Part shown: piece after piece, positions 1-16,697 of the stretch | Layout: every line of letters begins with the position of its first letter | Position numbering within the stretch: the first letter of the stretch is position 1 | The notes under the pieces: model-generated | Seen by the model: only the letters and a program-made list of their open reading frames with translations | Told to the model about the DNA's origin: nothing | Databases searched by the model: none | Made by a program: the position numbers and the translations under genes | Source of the DNA: Roseimicrobium sp. ORNL1 | GTDB taxonomy: Bacteria; Verrucomicrobiota; Verrucomicrobiia; Verrucomicrobiales; Verrucomicrobiaceae | Length of the DNA stretch: 64,000 bases | Assembly (NCBI RefSeq): GCF_011044495.1 | Contig: NZ_CP049143.1 | Coordinates: forward strand, 5,580,001 to 5,644,000 | Direction: 5' to 3'

Positions 1-3000
1 CAAGCCCGGCCGCGTGAAGCTGCGCTCCTGCACATCCGTATTCGCATAGTGCTCGGGTGTATCGATCTGGATCGCCAAGGTGTAGTGCCCCTCGATGGCA
101 TCACGCACGGCAAGGTCGCAGCGGAAACGTGATTGTCCCACCTGCACATCGACCTGATGTCCGCGTGCGCGCAAGGCTTCGGCCAGTTGTGTGGCCACCA
201 CATCCTGCGAGGAAGAGGCTCGCAGGGATTGCCGGTTGAGCGGGTTCGCTCCCTCCAGCACCTGGCGTGCATGGCGCAGCTCACCACGCGAAGTGTGCTC
301 GGCGTAGTTGAGGAAATTCTTGAGCGCGGAGGCTCCATCATTCCAGTCGTTGGTGATGTCCACATGCCGGATGCTACTCACCACCGCCATGTGATGCTTC
401 GCGCGGGAGAAGATCACATTGAGCCGCTTCTCCCCACCCTTCTGGTTGATGGGACCGAAGTTCATCAACATGCGATGATTCGCATCATAACCATAGCAGA
501 TGCTCAGCAGGATGATGTCACGTTCGTCGCCCTGTACGTTTTCCAGGTTCTTCACGAACAGCCCGACAAACTGGTCTTCCTCTTCGCGATTGTATTCCGC
601 CTCCAACCGCGTGGCGAAGTCAGCATCCTCTCCAGCGAGGCGCTCCAGTGCATCCTCAATCGCCGTCTGTTGTGCTTCGGAAAAAGCCACGATGCCCAGG
701 CTGAGCTTCGTGCCCTGCAGCAGGAGCGTTCGCACGAGGTTCGCGATGTAGTTCGCTTCATCGAGGTTGCGACGATTCTCATAAAGACCGCGCTCCATGC
801 GATGGAAGCTGATGCTGCGCGCCAGCAGCTTGGCGGCATTTGCCTCCGCATCCGCCGCCGATTTCACCACAATGTCCCCCAGTCCTTCCGCCACCGGACG
901 CCGATCCGGAATGGTCAGCAAATTACCACTGTAGAAGGACGCATTCGAGAACGAGATGAGCGCTTCATACCGACTGCGATAATGCCACGCCAACAATGTA
1001 GACGGCAGGCTCGCCGCCGACTGCGTGAGGAAGCTGTCCGCATCCAGGGAGATGGCAATCTTCTCACCTTCCTCCTCCACAGTGATTTCCTCTTCGTCAC
1101 CACCGCGGCTGCTGGCAAAGAAACTCGTGGGTGGAAGCTGCATTTCATCGCCCACCACGATCACCTGCTTTGCGCGGTAGAGCGAAGGGATGGCTTCCTC
1201 AAGTGGCACCTGACTGGCTTCGTCGAAGATGACCACATCAAACAATCCGGGATCCAGCGGCAGCGTATCGGAGACACTCAGCGGGCTCATCAACCACACG
1301 GGTTTCAAGCCGCGAATCACCTGGCCTGTCGTATCGGTGGCCAGATCGCGGATGGAGCGATACCGCATGGTCTTGCCGAACTCATGCTCGAGGTCGCGAC
1401 GTCCGGAGCTGAACGTCTTCTTGAAAATCTTCTGTTCCGGGGTGAGCTGCGCTGCGGGAAGCGAGGACACCTGTACCTGCTCCAGGAAGGCACGCTTCAC
1501 TCCATGACGGATGGAAGCGGCATTCTGATCCAGCAATGCGCTGTGTCCCCTGTGGAATCTTCCAATACGCTCCGCGAGCTGTGGTCCATCAAACCGTGCC
1601 GCATGGCGATCATCTCGCCAGCACGAGCGCAGCCCCTTGCGCGCCATGGCAAATTCCAACGCATCCACCGGGAGCGGCACGCGACGCACCATGTTGGCGA
1701 AGGCAGCGGGTGTTTCTCCCAACTCGCGCAAGATGCTGGCAAGCTCCGGTAGAAGATCCGCGCTCTCCCTCAGTGCGGCGATGACATCGGGCAACTCAGC
1801 AAACTTCGGCGCGCTCGCGTCATTCAGCGCGGTGTTGAGCACCTTCTGCAGTTCGTGTGTATCTCCATGCGCTTCCGCCAGCGCCTTGGCCAGTTCCAGG
1901 CCCTCATCACTGGCGCAGAGCTTGCGCAAAACACCGCGCAGCACCGGTGGTGCTGCATCCAGCCGCTGCTTCAGCGCTGTCATCTGCTCCACGAAGGCCG
2001 GCAAATCATCGATGTTCCACTCGGTCGCAGCCCGTTGCTTCACCTGGGCCACCGCAGCCTCTGCCTCCTGGGTTTTTGCCAGTGTCCCCAGCACCCGTGA
2101 GAAGGCAGGGGGCACCTTGTGCTTGGAGAAGTCATAGCGGGACTGCACCACTTTGCGCAGCCGCCACCAGGTCGGATTGAGGAAGCGGAAGACGCTGTTC
2201 TCCGTCGCCTTGGCTTGAGTGATCGCCTCCTGCACATCATCCGGCGGAAGCGGGTCATGCCATCCTTCGGACTTCACTGCGGCGTCGCGGTGTGCCTCGA
2301 TCTTGGTCTGCAAATCCTTCTGCAAGGAAGCAAAGGCCTTGGTCTTGCCATCGCCACTGCCATCCAGTGCCGTCATCAGTCCACGTTCTGCCAGAGGACG
2401 AGCTTCATGCGCGAAGTCCACACTGCTTGCGAAGTGCCCCAGTGGCAGCGCCTTCACACTCTCCGCATCGCCTGCGAGTGAGAGACTCGACTCAAGAGAA
2501 TCCAACAAGTCCTCCACAGCATTGAGCGACTCCCTCAAAGTATGAAGAGGTCGCTCCGACTCCAACACCGTCTGGCTCACATGGCGCAGAGGATGCTCCG
2601 CGAGGACTTCATCCTCACCCAGGTCCACCAGTGCCTGCCGGAGTCGACGAGCCACCTCACCGTGTTCCTTCCACTGGCCATAGTCTGGCAGCAACTCATC
2701 CGTGGAAGCATCCAGTTCCTCGGGATTGAGCAGTGCGTCTGCCTTCGACACCTCAGGTCTCAGCTCCACGAGACGTTGCAGCATCTGGTGTGCACTCGCA
2801 CCCATGCCGGGCTTCGCGGAGATCATCACTTCGCCGAAGCGCTTGATGGATTCCATCTCCTGCTCGAGGCGCTTCACGGTCTCCTGGCGTGCTTGCGTGA
2901 CATCACCATCCTGCTGCGCCTGCTGGAGGAAACCTTCATAAGTCTGTTTCAGATTTTGAATGAAGGCCTTCTTGTCCGTCTGGGAGTCATGAATGAGGCA

Positions 3001-5106
3001 GCACAGCTCATCCAACCCCTGCTGCCGCAACCGGTGGAAGACCACGTCGATGGCTGCGCGCTTTTCACAGACGAAGAGCACGCGCTTCCCGCGAGCGATG
3101 TTGTCCGCAATCAGGTTCGTAATCGTCTGGGACTTCCCCGTTCCCGGCGGTCCTTGGATGATGAAACTTCGTCCGTTGCGTGCCTTGGCCACGGCAGCCG
3201 CCTGGGCAGCATCGCAGGCTACTACAAAATGCTGCTCCTTCAGCGGAATGACCGCTGGGCTGATATCCTGCTCGCGAGGAGCGATGGAGAAGATGGTGTC
3301 AAACGCCTCACATGCGGGATCATGCTCCAGCAGGTGCTCGTAGTCGTGCACGAGCGACATCTTGCGGTAGTTGAAGTTCGCCAGCGTCAGTGAGCACAGA
3401 TCGTATTCCCACGAATACGGATTGGAAGATCCGCTCCCCTTCTGGAGGGAATAGGTTTCCTGGGAAGTTTCCATCACACCCTGAGAGGGTGTCTCACCCT
3501 GCGGATCCACGAGGTAGTCCAGGGGCAGGGATTCCCTCCCCATCGTCCCACCTGCAGCCACGCGCAGCGGCATGGGTTGCGGTTTCACCTTCTCGAGGAA
3601 GAGCTGCAACCCCAGAGGCCGGTAGTCCTCCTTCTTGTAGCTGTAGGACACCTTGCGTGCCACCGGCTTGCCCGTCTTCAGCATCTGGCGCCTGCGGAAC
3701 TGATCCACACGCATGCGCGCCCGCTCCTGCACGAGCTTGACCTGCGGCTTCTCGATGCACTTCAAGATCACCCCTGGCTCGCTGGCCTGAATCTGGGCGC
3801 GAAGCTGTTCATGAAACTGCCGCAGTGAGGTCTTCTGCAAATCCACCTCTTCTGGCAGATCAAGGTTGTACACCTCCTTCAAGTGGAAGCGGAGCGCGGG
3901 ATTCACCTCCGCAATGCCCGTGTCGATGGGGTCCAGCGTATAGCTATCCCGCACACCCTTCTTCTTCGTCAGTTCCACGGGAAGCAGCAGCAACGGCGAC
4001 TCGATCACCTCGTTCGGCGACTCCTTCAAATTGTGCCAGCGCAGGAACACCAGCACGAGCCGGAGCTGGGCGAAGCCATACTCCGCGCGATCGCGCCGCG
4101 CCTCGCTGATAATCTTATCCAGCACGCCCTGGAGATAGGGTTGCTCCTCAAAGCGCAAGTATTTGCCAAGCGGCATGACCTTCCCCTGGGACACCATGGA
4201 CTCGATCTCTGAATGCGCATAGCAGAGCTGCTCCGGCTTCACATTGCGGTAATCCAGCAATGTGGGCACGGACGCCACGGTGAGGTTCAGCGACTGCTGG
4301 GTCGGCTTGTAGTAGATGAGCCGGTTGCGTCGCGAGATCTCGAAGAGCCGATCGCGCAGGCGTGCCTGAATCAGCTTGCGGCGTCCGCTCGGCGTGGCCT
4401 GCTCCAGACCCGCGATGCGACGAACATCGAAATCGTCCGGCTGTTCACGATAGGTCTCCAGTCGCTTGATGATGGAAGCGAGGTCACAGGCACGCCGATG
4501 ACGATTCAGTTCCGTCATTTCCTCAATCACCGCAGCGACGACGGGATGCAGTCGCGGATGAAGATTGAAGAGGTTGTGCCGGTGATTCGCAAAGAGACGC
4601 ACATCCTCCGCATCCGTGAAATCCAGACCGCACGCGACGCTGGCCAGCACCTGGCCCAGCAGGAACACATCTGTGAGGACATCATGATGTCCCACGCGCT
4701 GCTCCCAGCAGCCATAGTCTGGCACATACACCGGGCGAGTGAGAGGCTTGTCCTCGACAGCCACCGAGTCATTCGTGTACACGGTGCTCGCTTCATCCAG
4801 GTTCGTCTCCAGCGTACCGTGACCAGTGACATCGAGCGCACGACTCATCGGCGCCTGCAAGGCTTCCACCTTGCTTGTGGCCTGTTTCGGATCGCTGGCC
4901 AGAGACGGGTCAAATCGAAGCTGGTTGTGATGCGCATCATAACTCAGCGCGCCCGCGGAGAGGCCAGCCACCTGGACCGTGTCATGCACCGCCTGCACCT
5001 GTCGGATGAGGGGTAGCACCACGGAAAGAACGTCATCCGTCTCCATGCCACCGTGCTCAGTGACTGCCCGCAACCACGAAAGAAAGGGTTTCCCTGCCTG
5101 TTCCAT
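1..5106 (-). CDS. DUF4011-type superfamily I helicase with C-terminal Vsr/MTES_1575-like nuclease (partial, 3' end beyond window)
   Basis: Open from an ATG at 5106 to the left edge: 1702 codons without a stop, so the C-terminus is missing. Residues 1-240 faintly resemble a protein-kinase C-lobe (QAVHD...LSAGALSYD, then a GHHDVLTDVFLLGQVL segment) but lack HRD and DFG residues. A DUF4011-like segment (LRDRLFEISRRNRLIYYKP, about 247-266) follows. Walker A GPPGTGKS is at 652-659, DEAS at 1295-1298, then GDEMQLPPTS, a HYRSR motif and VIFSRAKHHM, all typical of UPF1-like SF1 helicases. The last 60 residues match the start of a PD-(D/E)XK nuclease of the Vsr/MTES_1575 type (CDLAV with D1664; the usual IExD position reads IQID, Q1680). 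The start overlaps the upstream protease stop (TGATG), so the two are translationally coupled. The architecture recalls single-gene antiphage proteins of the DUF4011-helicase-Vsr kind; a defence role is inference. Confidence 0.88.
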   Translation of the reverse strand, partial: MEQAGKPFLSWLRAVTEHGGMETDDVLSVVLPLIRQVQAVHDTVQVAGLSAGALSYDAHHNQLRFDPSLASDPKQATSKVEALQAPMSRALDVTGHGTLETNLDEASTVYTNDSVAVEDKPLTRPVYVPDYGCWEQRVGHHDVLTDVFLLGQVLASVACGLDFTDAEDVRLFANHRHNLFNLHPRLHPVVAAVIEEMTELNRHRRACDLASIIKRLETYREQPDDFDVRRIAGLEQATPSGRRKLIQARLRDRLFEISRRNRLIYYKPTQQSLNLTVASVPTLLDYRNVKPEQLCYAHSEIESMVSQGKVMPLGKYLRFEEQPYLQGVLDKIISEARRDRAEYGFAQLRLVLVFLRWHNLKESPNEVIESPLLLLPVELTKKKGVRDSYTLDPIDTGIAEVNPALRFHLKEVYNLDLPEEVDLQKTSLRQFHEQLRAQIQASEPGVILKCIEKPQVKLVQERARMRVDQFRRRQMLKTGKPVARKVSYSYKKEDYRPLGLQLFLEKVKPQPMPLRVAAGGTMGRESLPLDYLVDPQGETPSQGVMETSQETYSLQKGSGSSNPYSWEYDLCSLTLANFNYRKMSLVHDYEHLLEHDPACEAFDTIFSIAPREQDISPAVIPLKEQHFVVACDAAQAAAVAKARNGRSFIIQGPPGTGKSQTITNLIADNIARGKRVLFVCEKRAAIDVVFHRLRQQGLDELCCLIHDSQTDKKAFIQNLKQTYEGFLQQAQQDGDVTQARQETVKRLEQEMESIKRFGEVMISAKPGMGASAHQMLQRLVELRPEVSKADALLNPEELDASTDELLPDYGQWKEHGEVARRLRQALVDLGEDEVLAEHPLRHVSQTVLESERPLHTLRESLNAVEDLLDSLESSLSLAGDAESVKALPLGHFASSVDFAHEARPLAERGLMTALDGSGDGKTKAFASLQKDLQTKIEAHRDAAVKSEGWHDPLPPDDVQEAITQAKATENSVFRFLNPTWWRLRKVVQSRYDFSKHKVPPAFSRVLGTLAKTQEAEAAVAQVKQRAATEWNIDDLPAFVEQMTALKQRLDAAPPVLRGVLRKLCASDEGLELAKALAEAHGDTHELQKVLNTALNDASAPKFAELPDVIAALRESADLLPELASILRELGETPAAFANMVRRVPLPVDALEFAMARKGLRSCWRDDRHAARFDGPQLAERIGRFHRGHSALLDQNAASIRHGVKRAFLEQVQVSSLPAAQLTPEQKIFKKTFSSGRRDLEHEFGKTMRYRSIRDLATDTTGQVIRGLKPVWLMSPLSVSDTLPLDPGLFDVVIFDEASQVPLEEAIPSLYRAKQVIVVGDEMQLPPTSFFASSRGGDEEEITVEEEGEKIAISLDADSFLTQSAASLPSTLLAWHYRSRYEALISFSNASFYSGNLLTIPDRRPVAEGLGDIVVKSAADAEANAAKLLARSISFHRMERGLYENRRNLDEANYIANLVRTLLLQGTKLSLGIVAFSEAQQTAIEDALERLAGEDADFATRLEAEYNREEEDQFVGLFVKNLENVQGDERDIILLSICYGYDANHRMLMNFGPINQKGGEKRLNVIFSRAKHHMAVVSSIRHVDITNDWNDGASALKNFLNYAEHTSRGELRHARQVLEGANPLNRQSLRASSSQDVVATQLAEALRARGHQVDVQVGQSRFRCDLAVRDAIEGHYTLAIQIDTPEHYANTDVQERSFTRPGL

Positions 5107-6299
5107 CACGCCTGTGTCTCCTCCTGTTTTGCCAGTACTTCCACCGCACCGGTACGCAGCGCTTTGATCTCACGCACCTTCATGTCCAGTTCCTTGCCCG
5201 CCATCTTGTCGAAGGCTTTCTCAATTCCCAAACGGCCGCTCATGAGCAGGCATGCACGCAGCGGCATGTCATCGAGTTCTTCATCCACCGTGGCGAAGTC
5301 CATCAACACCGCTGCGAAATACTCCGCCCTGCCTTCCACTTGATCAGGAGCATCCGTTTCCAACGACCCATCCATCGCGCCGTCGGGCTCGAAATCCGTG
5401 AAGAACAAACGTGCATGCGCCATCACAAGGTCAGAGCGGAACCATCGTGGCCGCAGCAATTGTGCGATGACACGTCGGGTGAATGCCGAAAGTGCCTCCT
5501 GCGCCGGCAGGTCCAGTTCATCGAGCGACGCCGGCCCATTGATCATCCTCTCGATTTCCTCTTCCGCGTCCGTGCCTCCCTCGTGCCAGAGCGCCAGGCA
5601 ATGCGCGCGAAGGAAAAGCTCCGGATGCGTTTGCTCCGCCGACTTTGTCTTCCACGAGTCGCACACTTCCGCCGCCTGTTTCAGATAGCTCTCACCACTC
5701 ACCTCCGCGAGCCCGGTGGCACCCTTCACCAGAGCCGCCACGGTGACAGCCAGATCTCCCGTCACCTTCAGCGCACCGCGATCCGCGAAAAGTTCGGTAT
5801 TCAACCGCAGCCGCCGGGCACTGTGCAAGTGCGAGGCATGCGCACGCGGGTCACTGGCACAGGCATGCGCGAGGCGATCGACCGTGTGGTGCACCCCGCC
5901 CTCATGCTGCCACAGGATGAAATGCGCCAGTTCGTGTCCCAGCACCGCGTGCAGTTCACGCCCACGCAGGATGCTGAGCATGCTCCCGTAAAAGACAATG
6001 TGGATCTCCTCCGGCAGCCGACAGATGGAGGCATTTGGCGCGAGCACCGCCTCCTGTGACTGATAGAGCGTGATGGGCACCGCAATGCCCAGCACTTCCG
6101 CCGCCTCCTTCGCAGCCGTCAGCAGTTCCGCGTGTTGGGGACCATCGAGCCTATAGCTGGAGGTCAGCAGTTCCCGACGGATGCCCTCCGTCACTTCCGT
6201 GCGATTGGCCGGCTCGGAAAACCACTGCCAGAGTTCCGGCTCCTGCTTCTGGAGAAAGCTCAATAGTTCCGTGTGATAGCTGGTGGGAGAAAGCGACAC
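5106..6299 (-). CDS. M48-like zinc metalloprotease with TerB-like C-terminal region
   Basis: 397 residues from a GTG start; no in-frame ATG lies upstream of the catalytic region. HELAH at 122-126 is the zinc-binding HEXXH motif (catalytic E123), and ELFAD at 169-173 fits the ExxAD third-ligand motif of M48 peptidases. There is no signal peptide and there are no obvious membrane segments, so the enzyme is probably cytoplasmic, unlike HtpX or Ste24. The C-terminal 70 residues (AEYFAAVLMDFATVDEELD onward) resemble the acidic helical pattern of TerB-like domains; this is a weak, by-eye match. The TGA stop overlaps the helicase ATG, so protease and helicase should be made together. A role as processing or regulatory protease for the helicase is inference. 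Confidence 0.8.
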   Translation of the reverse strand: MSLSPTSYHTELLSFLQKQEPELWQWFSEPANRTEVTEGIRRELLTSSYRLDGPQHAELLTAAKEAAEVLGIAVPITLYQSQEAVLAPNASICRLPEEIHIVFYGSMLSILRGRELHAVLGHELAHFILWQHEGGVHHTVDRLAHACASDPRAHASHLHSARRLRLNTELFADRGALKVTGDLAVTVAALVKGATGLAEVSGESYLKQAAEVCDSWKTKSAEQTHPELFLRAHCLALWHEGGTDAEEEIERMINGPASLDELDLPAQEALSAFTRRVIAQLLRPRWFRSDLVMAHARLFFTDFEPDGAMDGSLETDAPDQVEGRAEYFAAVLMDFATVDEELDDMPLRACLLMSGRLGIEKAFDKMAGKELDMKVREIKALRTGAVEVLAKQEETQA

Positions 6300-6413: not shown

Positions 6414-7493
6414 CTACTCCGCGACTTTTTCTTTGATTATGTGAGCCCACATGCGCTTGAACCGCGCTTCCAGTGAGGCCTTACCCCTTTTCCGATATTC
6501 TCGCTCTTCCGACTCATCCTCCAGAAGAATCCAGCCATCTCCTTGAGTCATGCGATAGCCCGGTATTTCCTCTGCTCCTTCGTGGAAAAGGAAACACTTG
6601 TGATGATTCTTGTGTTCTTCCACGAGCCATTTCATGTGCTCACCGCTGTCTGCATCGTTCAGAATCCAGATATCGCCATACCCCAATCCCTCGCTGTATT
6701 GGATAAATTGGCTCTTCCATCCTCCGAGCCAGTCGTCACAGTCAGAAGAAATGCCGATCGGAAATGCCTCAAAGGGATGTTTTGGCGAGTCCTTCGCGCG
6801 GTTTGCTTGGGTGGTACAGATGAGGCGAAAGACTTGGAAATCGGGCACTTCTCCACTCATGATCAACGACTCGATGTCACTTCGCTCGAGAAGTTCACGG
6901 AGTTTTTCGTAATAGGCCTCCGTACGTTTTGGAACAATAGGTGACAGGTAGTCTGGCCCAGTCCGACGGAAAGGAGGTGTTGGATCCAGATCACGAGGAT
7001 CCTGATAGAGTTCCAGAGATTCCACCTCTCTGCGAACCAAAGGATCCTGACTAACCCGAAGACGTCGCTGGACTTCAATCACCCGTTGAAAAATGCGACG
7101 TATCTCCGCCTTGAAGGTATCGCTTTCACGGTGATTCAACCAGCAGGCGTCCAGAGACGGCGTATACTCCCAGCCCCACGAGAAATACGAGTCAAAACCC
7201 CCCAGCGGAACAAAGTTCTCGGGCCACTCGCTCCCCTTTGGGAACCTCGTCTTTTCACGTTGTTCGGCGGCTTTGATCCTTACCCAGTCGGGCACCTCCA
7301 AAAGCTCAACCCACAGGTACTTGCACACATCCCCCGGTCGGGTGATGCACATGAGCTCATACACCCTCAGCGCCTGCTGGGCATCGCTCATCAAATGCTC
7401 AAGCGCGCAATCGTGTACGACCACGTGAAAAGGACGCCAATTGTCCTTCCTCTCGGGATAGGTCAGTTCACACTTAAGGGGCTGTCCGCTCAT
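6414..7493 (-). CDS. Protein of unknown function upstream of the protease-helicase pair
   Basis: 359 residues from ATG 7493; a GTG nine bases further upstream (7502) is the alternative start. I do not recognise the family. The sequence is soluble, rich in Trp, Tyr and charged residues, with no signal peptide or membrane segment. Notable short stretches are FDSYFSWGWEY near residue 100 and GYGDIWILNDADSGEH in the last third, an aromatic/acidic pattern somewhat like SMI1/KNR4 or DUF1963 folds, without convincing signature residues. It ends 114 bp before the protease start on the same strand and may belong to the same transcript. The base composition (more A+T than the flanking housekeeping genes, e.g. 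GAA/AAA-rich C-terminus) hints at acquisition, but weakly. Confidence 0.72.
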   Translation of the reverse strand: MSGQPLKCELTYPERKDNWRPFHVVVHDCALEHLMSDAQQALRVYELMCITRPGDVCKYLWVELLEVPDWVRIKAAEQREKTRFPKGSEWPENFVPLGGFDSYFSWGWEYTPSLDACWLNHRESDTFKAEIRRIFQRVIEVQRRLRVSQDPLVRREVESLELYQDPRDLDPTPPFRRTGPDYLSPIVPKRTEAYYEKLRELLERSDIESLIMSGEVPDFQVFRLICTTQANRAKDSPKHPFEAFPIGISSDCDDWLGGWKSQFIQYSEGLGYGDIWILNDADSGEHMKWLVEEHKNHHKCFLFHEGAEEIPGYRMTQGDGWILLEDESEEREYRKRGKASLEARFKRMWAHIIKEKVAE

Positions 7494-7777
7494 GGCATCC
7501 ACATCGTCAGTGGGTTTATCTATCCGTCAAGAAGACCATCAATCACGTCTTCCTTACTGCCTTGCGTCCATGGATGAAAAGCTGAAACACGCAGATCTAC
7601 CAAATCACGCGCGTGCGATTGCAAGAGCAGCAGTCGCCCACCGCCCCCTGCAACGCAACTGTCACGCACGGTCATTCCCTGGGAAAAAGCTCCTGCTTCA
7701 CTGGACGCCTTGCGAAATTGTTGCTTCAATCACCGCCAGTCAGTCACACGGCCAACGCTCCTTACATCCCTTCCACA

Positions 7778-15100: not shown

Positions 15101-16609
15101 TTAAGGGCTCGTCGGGGGCGGATTCGGACTCGGAACAATGATGATAGGCGGGCCGTTGCCGTTATTGCCACCGCCGCCCTGATTGTCGTCGTCGTCGTCT
15201 GCCGGAGGAGCCTGGAAGGGGCCGCTGCCACCGGTGCCACCGCCGCGATAGGCGGAGAGACCGAGAGCTGAAAGGGACGCGGGATTCAGCGGAGCATTGG
15301 GATCACCGATCACCGAGCCACTGCCGTTGTCGCCGTCATCTTCATCTCCGTTGGTGCCATTGGTTCCATTGGTGCCGTTCTCACCGGGGGTGCTGGCAGG
15401 CGTAAGGCCAGCAGCGGCAAGAATCGCATTGATGGCATCCTGTTCGGTCGCGTTGGGTCCAAGCTGGCTCTGCACCTGAGCGATGGCCGCCTTGGAAATC
15501 AGCACCAGTTGGGAGCCGCCTGCGCAAGCGATTTTGATGGATTCAAAGCCTTCCGCAGTCGACTGAGGAGCCTGGGTGTAGGTGGGACCGTCCATGAGGC
15601 CCAGTTCCTTGAGTGCATTGGCGTAGGGCACGACCACCGACATGGCCACCGCTTCCCACTCAGGGGAGACACCAGCGACACCACGCTTGTCGAAGTTCGG
15701 CTCGAAACGCAGGGCCACGTAGCGGGCCTTCACAGGCTGCTTCGGGGTGAGCTGCATGAGGCCCTTGCCCACGGAATCTTCGCCAGAGGCGATGATCGGT
15801 GTCGTGTCGAAGATGGAGGGATCCAGCGTCAACTTGCCGCGCCAGTCTTTCTTCTCAGGAAGCTGCTCGAAGGCAAACACATCAAGGCGGGTCGGCACGC
15901 GGGAGTAGGCAGCGCTGAACTTCTTGATGACGCGGGCGGTGCCCAGGTCATACACCACGGTGCGGAAGCGCTCAGTGGTCTTCGGGAACTTGAAGGTCTG
16001 GCGGGCGCCCTCGTTGTCACCCACGTTCGTGGGGGTGGGGTACATGTAGATGGGCTTGGCGCCGGAGCTGGCGGAAGCAAGGTCCACTTCAGTACCCTTT
16101 TCCTTCACCGGCACCGCCTTGTAGTCGGAGACCTTGGAAGGACCGGAAATCGAAAGATTGCGGATGGAAGCGCCATTGGAAGCATTGAAGCTGAGCTTCA
16201 CATACTTCGCCTGGGCACCGGCAAAACGCAGGGAGACGAGGCGCTCGCCAGCGTCGAAACCGGCCTGGGCCAGCGAAACCCACTGGCTGTTGTCCGTGCT
16301 GCTGGAAACGGTCACGCTGCCGCTCACGCCTTCATTGATGAAGGACACGTCCTCCACAACTTCCTGCGCACCCAACGTGATGACCACATGCGAAGCTCCG
16401 GAAGGCACTTTGGCCGCCTCCATCGAACCCTCGTTCAGCAGGGCTGAGGAGTTGCCGATGCTGGCGCTGGACTGGATCTTCGCACCCAGGATGGCTTGGT
16501 TGGCCAAGTTGATGGGGGCATCAGCAGAAGGCAGACGCTGCCATGCCGCGGACGATGTGCCCAGCATGCAGACCATCGCCAGAAGGGTGGGATGAAAAGC
16601 AGATTTCAT
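15101..16609 (-). CDS. Exported protein of unknown function, discoidin-like body with Asn-Gly-Thr and Asp-rich tail
   Basis: 502 residues with a signal peptide (MKSAFHPTLLAMVCMLGTSSA). The first part (about 30-165) has the strand pattern and motifs of a discoidin/F5-8 type C-like domain (LANQAILGAKIQSSASIGNSS, VTVSSSTDNSQWVSLAQAGF, RFAGAQAKYVKLSFNASNG), often a carbohydrate- or surface-binding fold; a second similar beta-rich region lies at 190-340. The end is low complexity: an NGTNGTNGTNG tract, acidic DEDDGDNGSGS, then a Gly/Asn/Pro-rich tail with DDDDD. I know no enzymatic motif here. It is likely an abundant envelope or surface protein: it has its own promoter and a strong terminator. 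Confidence 0.82.
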   Translation of the reverse strand: MKSAFHPTLLAMVCMLGTSSAAWQRLPSADAPINLANQAILGAKIQSSASIGNSSALLNEGSMEAAKVPSGASHVVITLGAQEVVEDVSFINEGVSGSVTVSSSTDNSQWVSLAQAGFDAGERLVSLRFAGAQAKYVKLSFNASNGASIRNLSISGPSKVSDYKAVPVKEKGTEVDLASASSGAKPIYMYPTPTNVGDNEGARQTFKFPKTTERFRTVVYDLGTARVIKKFSAAYSRVPTRLDVFAFEQLPEKKDWRGKLTLDPSIFDTTPIIASGEDSVGKGLMQLTPKQPVKARYVALRFEPNFDKRGVAGVSPEWEAVAMSVVVPYANALKELGLMDGPTYTQAPQSTAEGFESIKIACAGGSQLVLISKAAIAQVQSQLGPNATEQDAINAILAAAGLTPASTPGENGTNGTNGTNGDEDDGDNGSGSVIGDPNAPLNPASLSALGLSAYRGGGTGGSGPFQAPPADDDDDNQGGGGNNGNGPPIIIVPSPNPPPTSP

Positions 16610-16667
16610 GAGATGTGAACGTATGGGGGTAGGGCCGTGTTGAGCGAAAACACGCTTTTATTTCTCA

Positions 16668-16697
16668 AAAATACCCAATGGACCAGTGGATTGTCAA
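16668..16697 (-). promoter_or_regulatory. Probable sigma-70 promoter of the 15101-16609 gene
   Basis: Minus-strand TTGACA (16697-16692), an 18-bp spacer and TATTTT (16673-16668) lie about 60-90 bases upstream of the ATG at 16609. The -35 is perfect; the -10 is fair and the spacer is one base long. A small hairpin (CGTGTT...AACACG, 16636-16654) falls in the predicted leader. Confidence 0.45.

Follow-up and report, generated by a model that had tools for sequence, protein, structure and literature searches.

A soluble M48-family zinc metallopeptidase and a giant SF1 helicase are encoded by overlapping genes in the genome of Roseimicrobium sp. ORNL1 (a single contig of 7.96 Mb), and the two genes are inherited, acquired and lost together, while a second lineage carries them as a fusion. 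The reading favored here, to which a probability of roughly 0.45 is attached, is that the two proteins make up a sensor-effector system in which the helicase would serve as sensor and the protease as effector, most likely in defence against invaders. The findings suggest an undescribed system in which the partner switched on by a helicase sensor would be a protease rather than a nuclease. The initial annotation had suspected a defence or regulatory system; the coupling behind that suspicion is conserved and the pair is a good candidate for such an undescribed system, while a defensive use is plausible and the genomic contexts lie mostly outside defence islands.

Gene layout

The window, that is, the whole 64,000-nt stretch of DNA analysed, carries the first 1,703 codons of the helicase gene, and the remaining 513 nt lie beyond the window start (Table 1). 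The full-length gene bears out the expectation of a partner protein of more than 1700 residues. Two start readings are possible for the helicase, either GTG with a 4-nt GTGA overlap or ATG with the TGATG overlap (5104-5108) noted at the outset, which is present in the sequence; the GTG reading corresponds to the 4-nt overlap type that is usual among relatives. Among the protease-profile matches listed, the closest relatives of the pair belong to the Verrucomicrobiota. The genes that flank the locus lie apart in other genera of the family. Adjoining the pair is a 362-aa protein (window 6414-7502, minus strand) without a family match, which evolves faster in a congener (62% identity, dN/dS 0.13).

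Table 1. Coordinates of the protease and helicase genes and of their features in the window
Feature	Position	Strand	Details
M48-family zinc metallopeptidase gene	5106..6299	-	397 aa, GTG start
Giant SF1 helicase gene	1..5109	-	1,873 aa in full; L002:8488-14109 -
GTGATG start/stop overlap (protease stop and helicase start)	5104..5109	-	Sequence
HELAH zinc-binding motif	5922..5936	-	Protease residues 122-126
ELFAD, third zinc ligand E169 and D173	5781..5795	-	Protease
THPE...R motif typical of M48	5607..5630	-	Protease residues 224-231
Alpha-helical C-terminal protease tail, possible half TerB domain	5109..5537	-	AF2 helices, weak hhalign
Kinase C-lobe fold, predicted pseudokinase	4444..5106	-	Helicase residues 2-222
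DUF4011	3889..4350	-	Helicase residues 254-407; Pfam 2.6e-14 (full gene)
Walker A, QGPPGTGKS	3130..3156	-	Helicase residues 652-660; invariant in 39 aligned helicases
Walker B/motif II, DEASQ	1210..1224	-	Helicase residues 1296-1300; invariant in 39 aligned helicases
Vsr-like MTES_1575 domain, conserved E replaced by Q	1..189	-	Helicase residues 1641-1734; Pfam 5.4e-17 (full gene)

Conservation, distribution and fusion of the pair

A protease-profile scan with one genome per species recovered at least 53 loci. Among the matches listed, the helicase lies downstream on the same strand in all 36 of the other two-gene loci with a readable contig, and eight further loci (L013, L051-L057) encode protease and helicase in one frame of about 1,900 aa that contains M48, a TerB-like domain, DUF4011, the SF1 motor and the Vsr-like domain. 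The remaining nine complete matches are distant M48 proteins without a helicase. The adjacency count of homologues called for at the outset has thus come out in favor of the pair. Most of the 36 two-gene loci show the 4-nt ATGA/GTGA overlap (30), two show TGATG and the rest differ slightly; one has an 843-nt insertion between the genes. This insertion (L018:4951-5795, about 840 nt) contains two small open reading frames. Just upstream of the Herbaspirillum pair lies a second, truncated M48 relative (L024:217-2867), which shares 60% identity with the paired protease of Cupriavidus and overlaps a 713-aa Sel1-repeat protein.

The pair spans at least five phyla, namely Verrucomicrobiota, Planctomycetota (from one MAG), Pseudomonadota (Alpha- and Betaproteobacteria), Myxococcota and Actinomycetota. 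Protease and helicase distances are tightly correlated over 34 pairs (Mantel r 0.98, with 0 of 5000 permutations as high). The concern that the pair might occur in this genome only is thereby removed. Its presence is patchy, the protease occurring in 6 of 388 genomes of a Verrucomicrobiota sample. Across 38 Kribbella genomes, protease and helicase are found in the same 25 and are both missing from the same 13. One of these 13 retains syntenic flanks and a scar in which codon 30 of the protease gene runs directly into codon 1674 of the helicase gene; about 6.1 kb of the pair has therefore been lost, most simply by deletion in one step. Chance adjacency is ruled out by the 36 loci, the Mantel correlation and the Kribbella pattern, and a genome-specific oddity by the homologous loci in other genomes. 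In a congener of the source genome the pair occupies the same place with dN/dS values of 0.066 and 0.068, similar to those of housekeeping neighbors. A counter-example is the close relative G143 (L097), in which the helicase (49% identical) occurs without the protease, and which argues against the sensor-effector reading.

The M48 protease

The protease matches Pfam M48 in a short stretch at 26.7 bits, above the gathering score of 20.3, and possesses the HExxH motif, the downstream E of ELxAD and the HP motif of peptidase family M48; the zinc protease with HELAH and ELFAD recognized initially is thus confirmed. Ten residues (H122, E123, H126, E169, D173, R174, H225, P226, E227 and R231) show no variation across the 39 paired proteases. 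An AF2 model built from 33 relatives (pLDDT 92.6) finds its best structural match in HtpX (3cqb, Z 9.9 over 93 residues), followed by ZMPSTE24, Ste24 and BepA, and the M48 core is therefore well supported. No transmembrane-like segment was found in a Kyte-Doolittle scan (window maximum 1.41). Judged by the lack of such a segment and by its motifs, the protein is a soluble and catalytically complete M48 enzyme. While HtpX, Ste24 and BepA have the same catalytic fold and all of the M48 motifs, the window protease differs from them in having no membrane-like segments and in carrying a helical tail of its own, co-inherited with a helicase. PADLOC models gave zero matches to the protease.

The TerB-like tail originally assigned to this protein is not established, as there is no Pfam match and a comparison with genuine TerB domains in hhalign yields 0.1%. 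The tail shows a weak hhalign likeness (19%) to that of the fused relatives, which at the equivalent place is clearly TerB-like (94%) and whose sole PDB sequence match is a COG3793 tellurite-resistance protein (E 0.05).

Pfam also detects a SprT-like similarity (E 0.019), at 15.3 bits against a gathering score of 25.6. This bears on a role in DNA-protein crosslink repair, in which the protease would degrade proteins covalently attached to DNA and the helicase would deliver it to the lesion, as in SPRTN/Wss1. Such a task would suit a zinc protease that is combined with a translocase, with modules of DNA-end type and with a nuclease fold that possibly does not cut, and this weak similarity fits as well; the similarity nevertheless falls below its gathering score, M48 is the supported family, and a repair pathway would not usually be so sporadic or be lost so cleanly in one piece. 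Crosslink repair is thus quite unlikely.

The giant helicase

All three parts proposed for the giant protein, DUF4011, an SF1 helicase and a Vsr-like domain, are found by Pfam. DUF4011 scores 2.2e-14 in the window portion alone, and the motor matches AAA_11 and AAA_12 (6e-21 and 4e-16). The final 31 residues of the MTES_1575 domain fall outside the window, and it passes the cut-off in the full gene only (62.1 vs 38.2 bits).

Residues 1-250 have no Pfam match. A profile of 34 N-terminal sequences searched against the PDB returned 27 matches, all of them kinases (best E 0.006); the AF2 model of this domain (pLDDT 90.7) likewise retrieved only kinases among its top-50 Foldseek matches, with PknB at Z 15.1. 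The aligned part extends from near the kinase hinge onward, so that the N-lobe is missing. Of the features of an active Ser/Thr kinase (N-lobe, HRD, DFG), the helicase N-terminus shows the C-lobe fold only, and across the family the HRD/catalytic-loop position reads VAPL-like. The domain is predicted to be a pseudokinase. Its profile matched neither ProA nor the fused proteins.

At the other end, the full-length protein terminates in a WGR domain (Pfam), as do most paired helicases in Verrucomicrobiota, Alpha- and Betaproteobacteria. In a Myxococcota paired helicase (L035), WGR is replaced at the C-terminus by BRCT (16359-16688; DNA ligase A, E 4e-15). WGR and BRCT are known from proteins that sense DNA breaks and nicks, such as PARP1/2 and DNA ligase, which supports a capacity to sense DNA structure.

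The nuclease domain sets the coupled helicases apart. DUF4011/DUF3320 helicases without the protease have [IV]ECDG as their nuclease motif and ARDRDRLR after it, and the E of ECDG is present in 24 of 28 relatives. This E is absent from all 36 pairs, all eight fusions and the solo protein of G143, and in every coupled member the RDRD helix differs as well. The window helicase has Q in this position and so lacks the conserved E (ECDG) of Hhe/ProA-type nucleases. A tree of the motor alone groups the paired helicases in one clade (100/99) and the fused helicases in a separate one (100/100); the losses of E thus represent at most about two independent events rather than 44. An AU test against a single clade of paired and fused helicases gave weak rejection (p 0.034) with long branches, and the protease tree places paired and fused forms together with 80/79 support. 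The loss may be one or two ancestral events, and it also occurs in 4 of the 28 controls, both of which count against the sensor-effector reading. The Vsr-like nuclease named initially is accordingly present as a domain, while its conserved acidic residue is missing; judging from these motifs the nuclease of the paired helicases is probably dead, a point that changes which mechanism is likely. The source genome encodes a second giant helicase of the DUF4011/DUF3320 type (L098:664-6954; G000:C1 near 3.29 Mb; about 2,096 aa), in which the nuclease E is retained and which has no neighboring protease of this kind.

Alternatively, the protease could be a maturation or safety factor that cleaves the giant protein or an inhibitor, leaving the helicase as effector, acting by translocation or through a still-active nuclease. 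Vsr itself relies on another residue set, so nuclease activity is conceivable without the E; the dN/dS of the nuclease domain in the congener comparison is still 0.06, and tight co-inheritance would be expected in this case as well. Against this, every coupled member shows changes at both the E and the RDRD helix motif, and in the fused forms protease and helicase are parts of a single chain. A maturation factor is decidedly improbable.

Genomic context

The two-gene loci lie mostly outside defence islands. PADLOC matches among the pooled 205 nearest neighbors are few and scattered and come largely from one CRISPR locus (a descriptive count without a matched background), and Pfam on half of these neighbors returned ordinary genes. 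With few exceptions, neighbors are common to close relatives only, and no conserved regulator or target gene adjoins the pair beyond the genus level. In Fulvimonas soli, a fused protease-helicase gene is contained in a type I-G/I-U CRISPR-Cas locus (L056:3748-20618), between Cas3/GSU0054-type genes and Cas4-Cas1 and next to an array with about 37 repeats; at another fused locus, the upstream genes encode large MZB-domain and UvrD helicases. Thus, the possibility of a purely housekeeping context, raised at the outset as a ground for dismissal, agrees with the few defence genes near two-gene loci and conflicts with the one fused gene inside CRISPR-Cas.

Carriage by plasmids, phages or viruses was considered and rejected: no copy of the pair was found on 72,556 plasmids, on 50,697 phages or in viral contigs. 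DUF4011/DUF3320 helicases without the protease occur on 413 plasmids. This restriction of the pair, together with its mostly off-island position, counts against the defence reading, and the slow evolution and stable locus within the genus fit a host function as well.

Such a host function could be DNA-damage signalling, a stress module rather than immunity, in which the helicase would sense damaged DNA and the protease would cleave a repressor or other regulator. Damage sensing would be a natural task for an SF1 motor with WGR/BRCT ends, and the housekeeping surroundings and strong purifying selection are in keeping with this reading. The precedent is IrrE, itself an M78-like metallopeptidase and not an M48 enzyme, a difference of family that weakens the parallel. 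In Deinococcus, IrrE cleaves DdrO and is thus a damage-responsive metalloprotease acting on a repressor, which illustrates how the same parts could serve (PMC8533742). The patchy presence in the phylum, the lack of a conserved regulator or target near the pair beyond the genus and the kinship of the helicase to antiphage proteins all speak against damage signalling, which is considered unlikely.

Proposed mechanism and significance

Under the preferred sensor-effector reading, the giant helicase would be an SF1 sensor, powered by ATP, for damaged or foreign nucleic acid; it would consist of the motor, DUF4011 and a scaffold of kinase fold, to which many members add a DNA-end-type module at the C-terminus (WGR, or BRCT in one). 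The Vsr-like nuclease would not be the effector and is probably retained as a binding or structural domain. The M48 protease would instead be held in a physical complex by the helicase, which would gate it, and be activated once the motor engages its target; cleavage of a host or invader protein would then halt growth or infection. The most likely purpose of such a device would be antiphage or other anti-invader defence. The wider proposition, offered tentatively, is that of an immune system, widespread but undescribed, whose Hhe/ProA-type nuclease effector gave way to the M48 protease and whose dead nuclease and pseudokinase stayed on as scaffold or sensor parts.

Within the Hhe/ProA group, DUF4011 helicases are curated as antiphage proteins, and little is known of how they act. 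A lineage that exchanged its nuclease for a protease would, if the proposal is true, reveal the helicase as a modular sensor. A soluble M48 protease would join the few proteases that serve as effectors of bacterial immunity, and the system would sit outside classical defence islands, so that island-based searches would miss such loci.

Comparison with known systems

Among the papers searched, none was found that pairs DUF4011 or DUF3320 with an M48 protease; with the coupling conserved and even fused, the original impression that a DUF4011-helicase-Vsr protein tied to its own cytoplasmic protease is undescribed holds. The nearest curated families, the antiphage ProA and Hhe, together with the PADLOC candidate PDC-S37 and the one fused gene in CRISPR-Cas, suggest a sensor-effector system in defence. 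ProA (NF058533) is the closest of these and has the DUF4011-SF1-MTES_1575 core in common with the window helicase, the score arising over motor and nuclease; the helicase reaches 650.4 bits against a curated cut-off of 1500 (relatives 521-700 bits), and true plasmid ProA differs in being a single gene with no protease and no match to the pseudokinase profile. Hhe (NF042953; PADLOC Hhe E 9e-91) has the same core, present in the window helicase with Walker A and B intact, but it is a single protein without a protease, and the window helicase lies far under its cut-off (470.9 vs 2000 bits). Of the PADLOC models, PDC-S37 matches the helicase best (E 1.4e-203, for a model shown without a curated cut-off), although it is a candidate model of the helicase alone, with its best stretch at 611-1697.

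Two further systems suggest, by analogy, precedents for the sensor-effector reading. In Hachiman (HamAB), an effector is kept in check by a helicase sensor, which activates it when DNA is damaged (PMC12278908). The resemblance is one of working, with two genes for a helicase sensor and an effector; the Hachiman effector, however, is a nuclease and its helicase is of another type, no HamA or HamB model appeared among PADLOC matches of the protease or helicase up to E 1, and no kinship is claimed. SF1-Vsr giants of the MTES_1575 group carry a transglutaminase-like peptidase, and protein cleavage has been proposed as their further line of defence (Anantharaman et al. 2013, PMC3710099). These HEPN-transglutaminase-SF1-Vsr proteins differ from the present pair in uniting a transglutaminase-like fold and a HEPN RNase in one chain, in having a nuclease described as a DNase and in being without an M48 partner gene, but they likewise join an SF1 helicase and the same Vsr-like domain to a peptidase-like domain.
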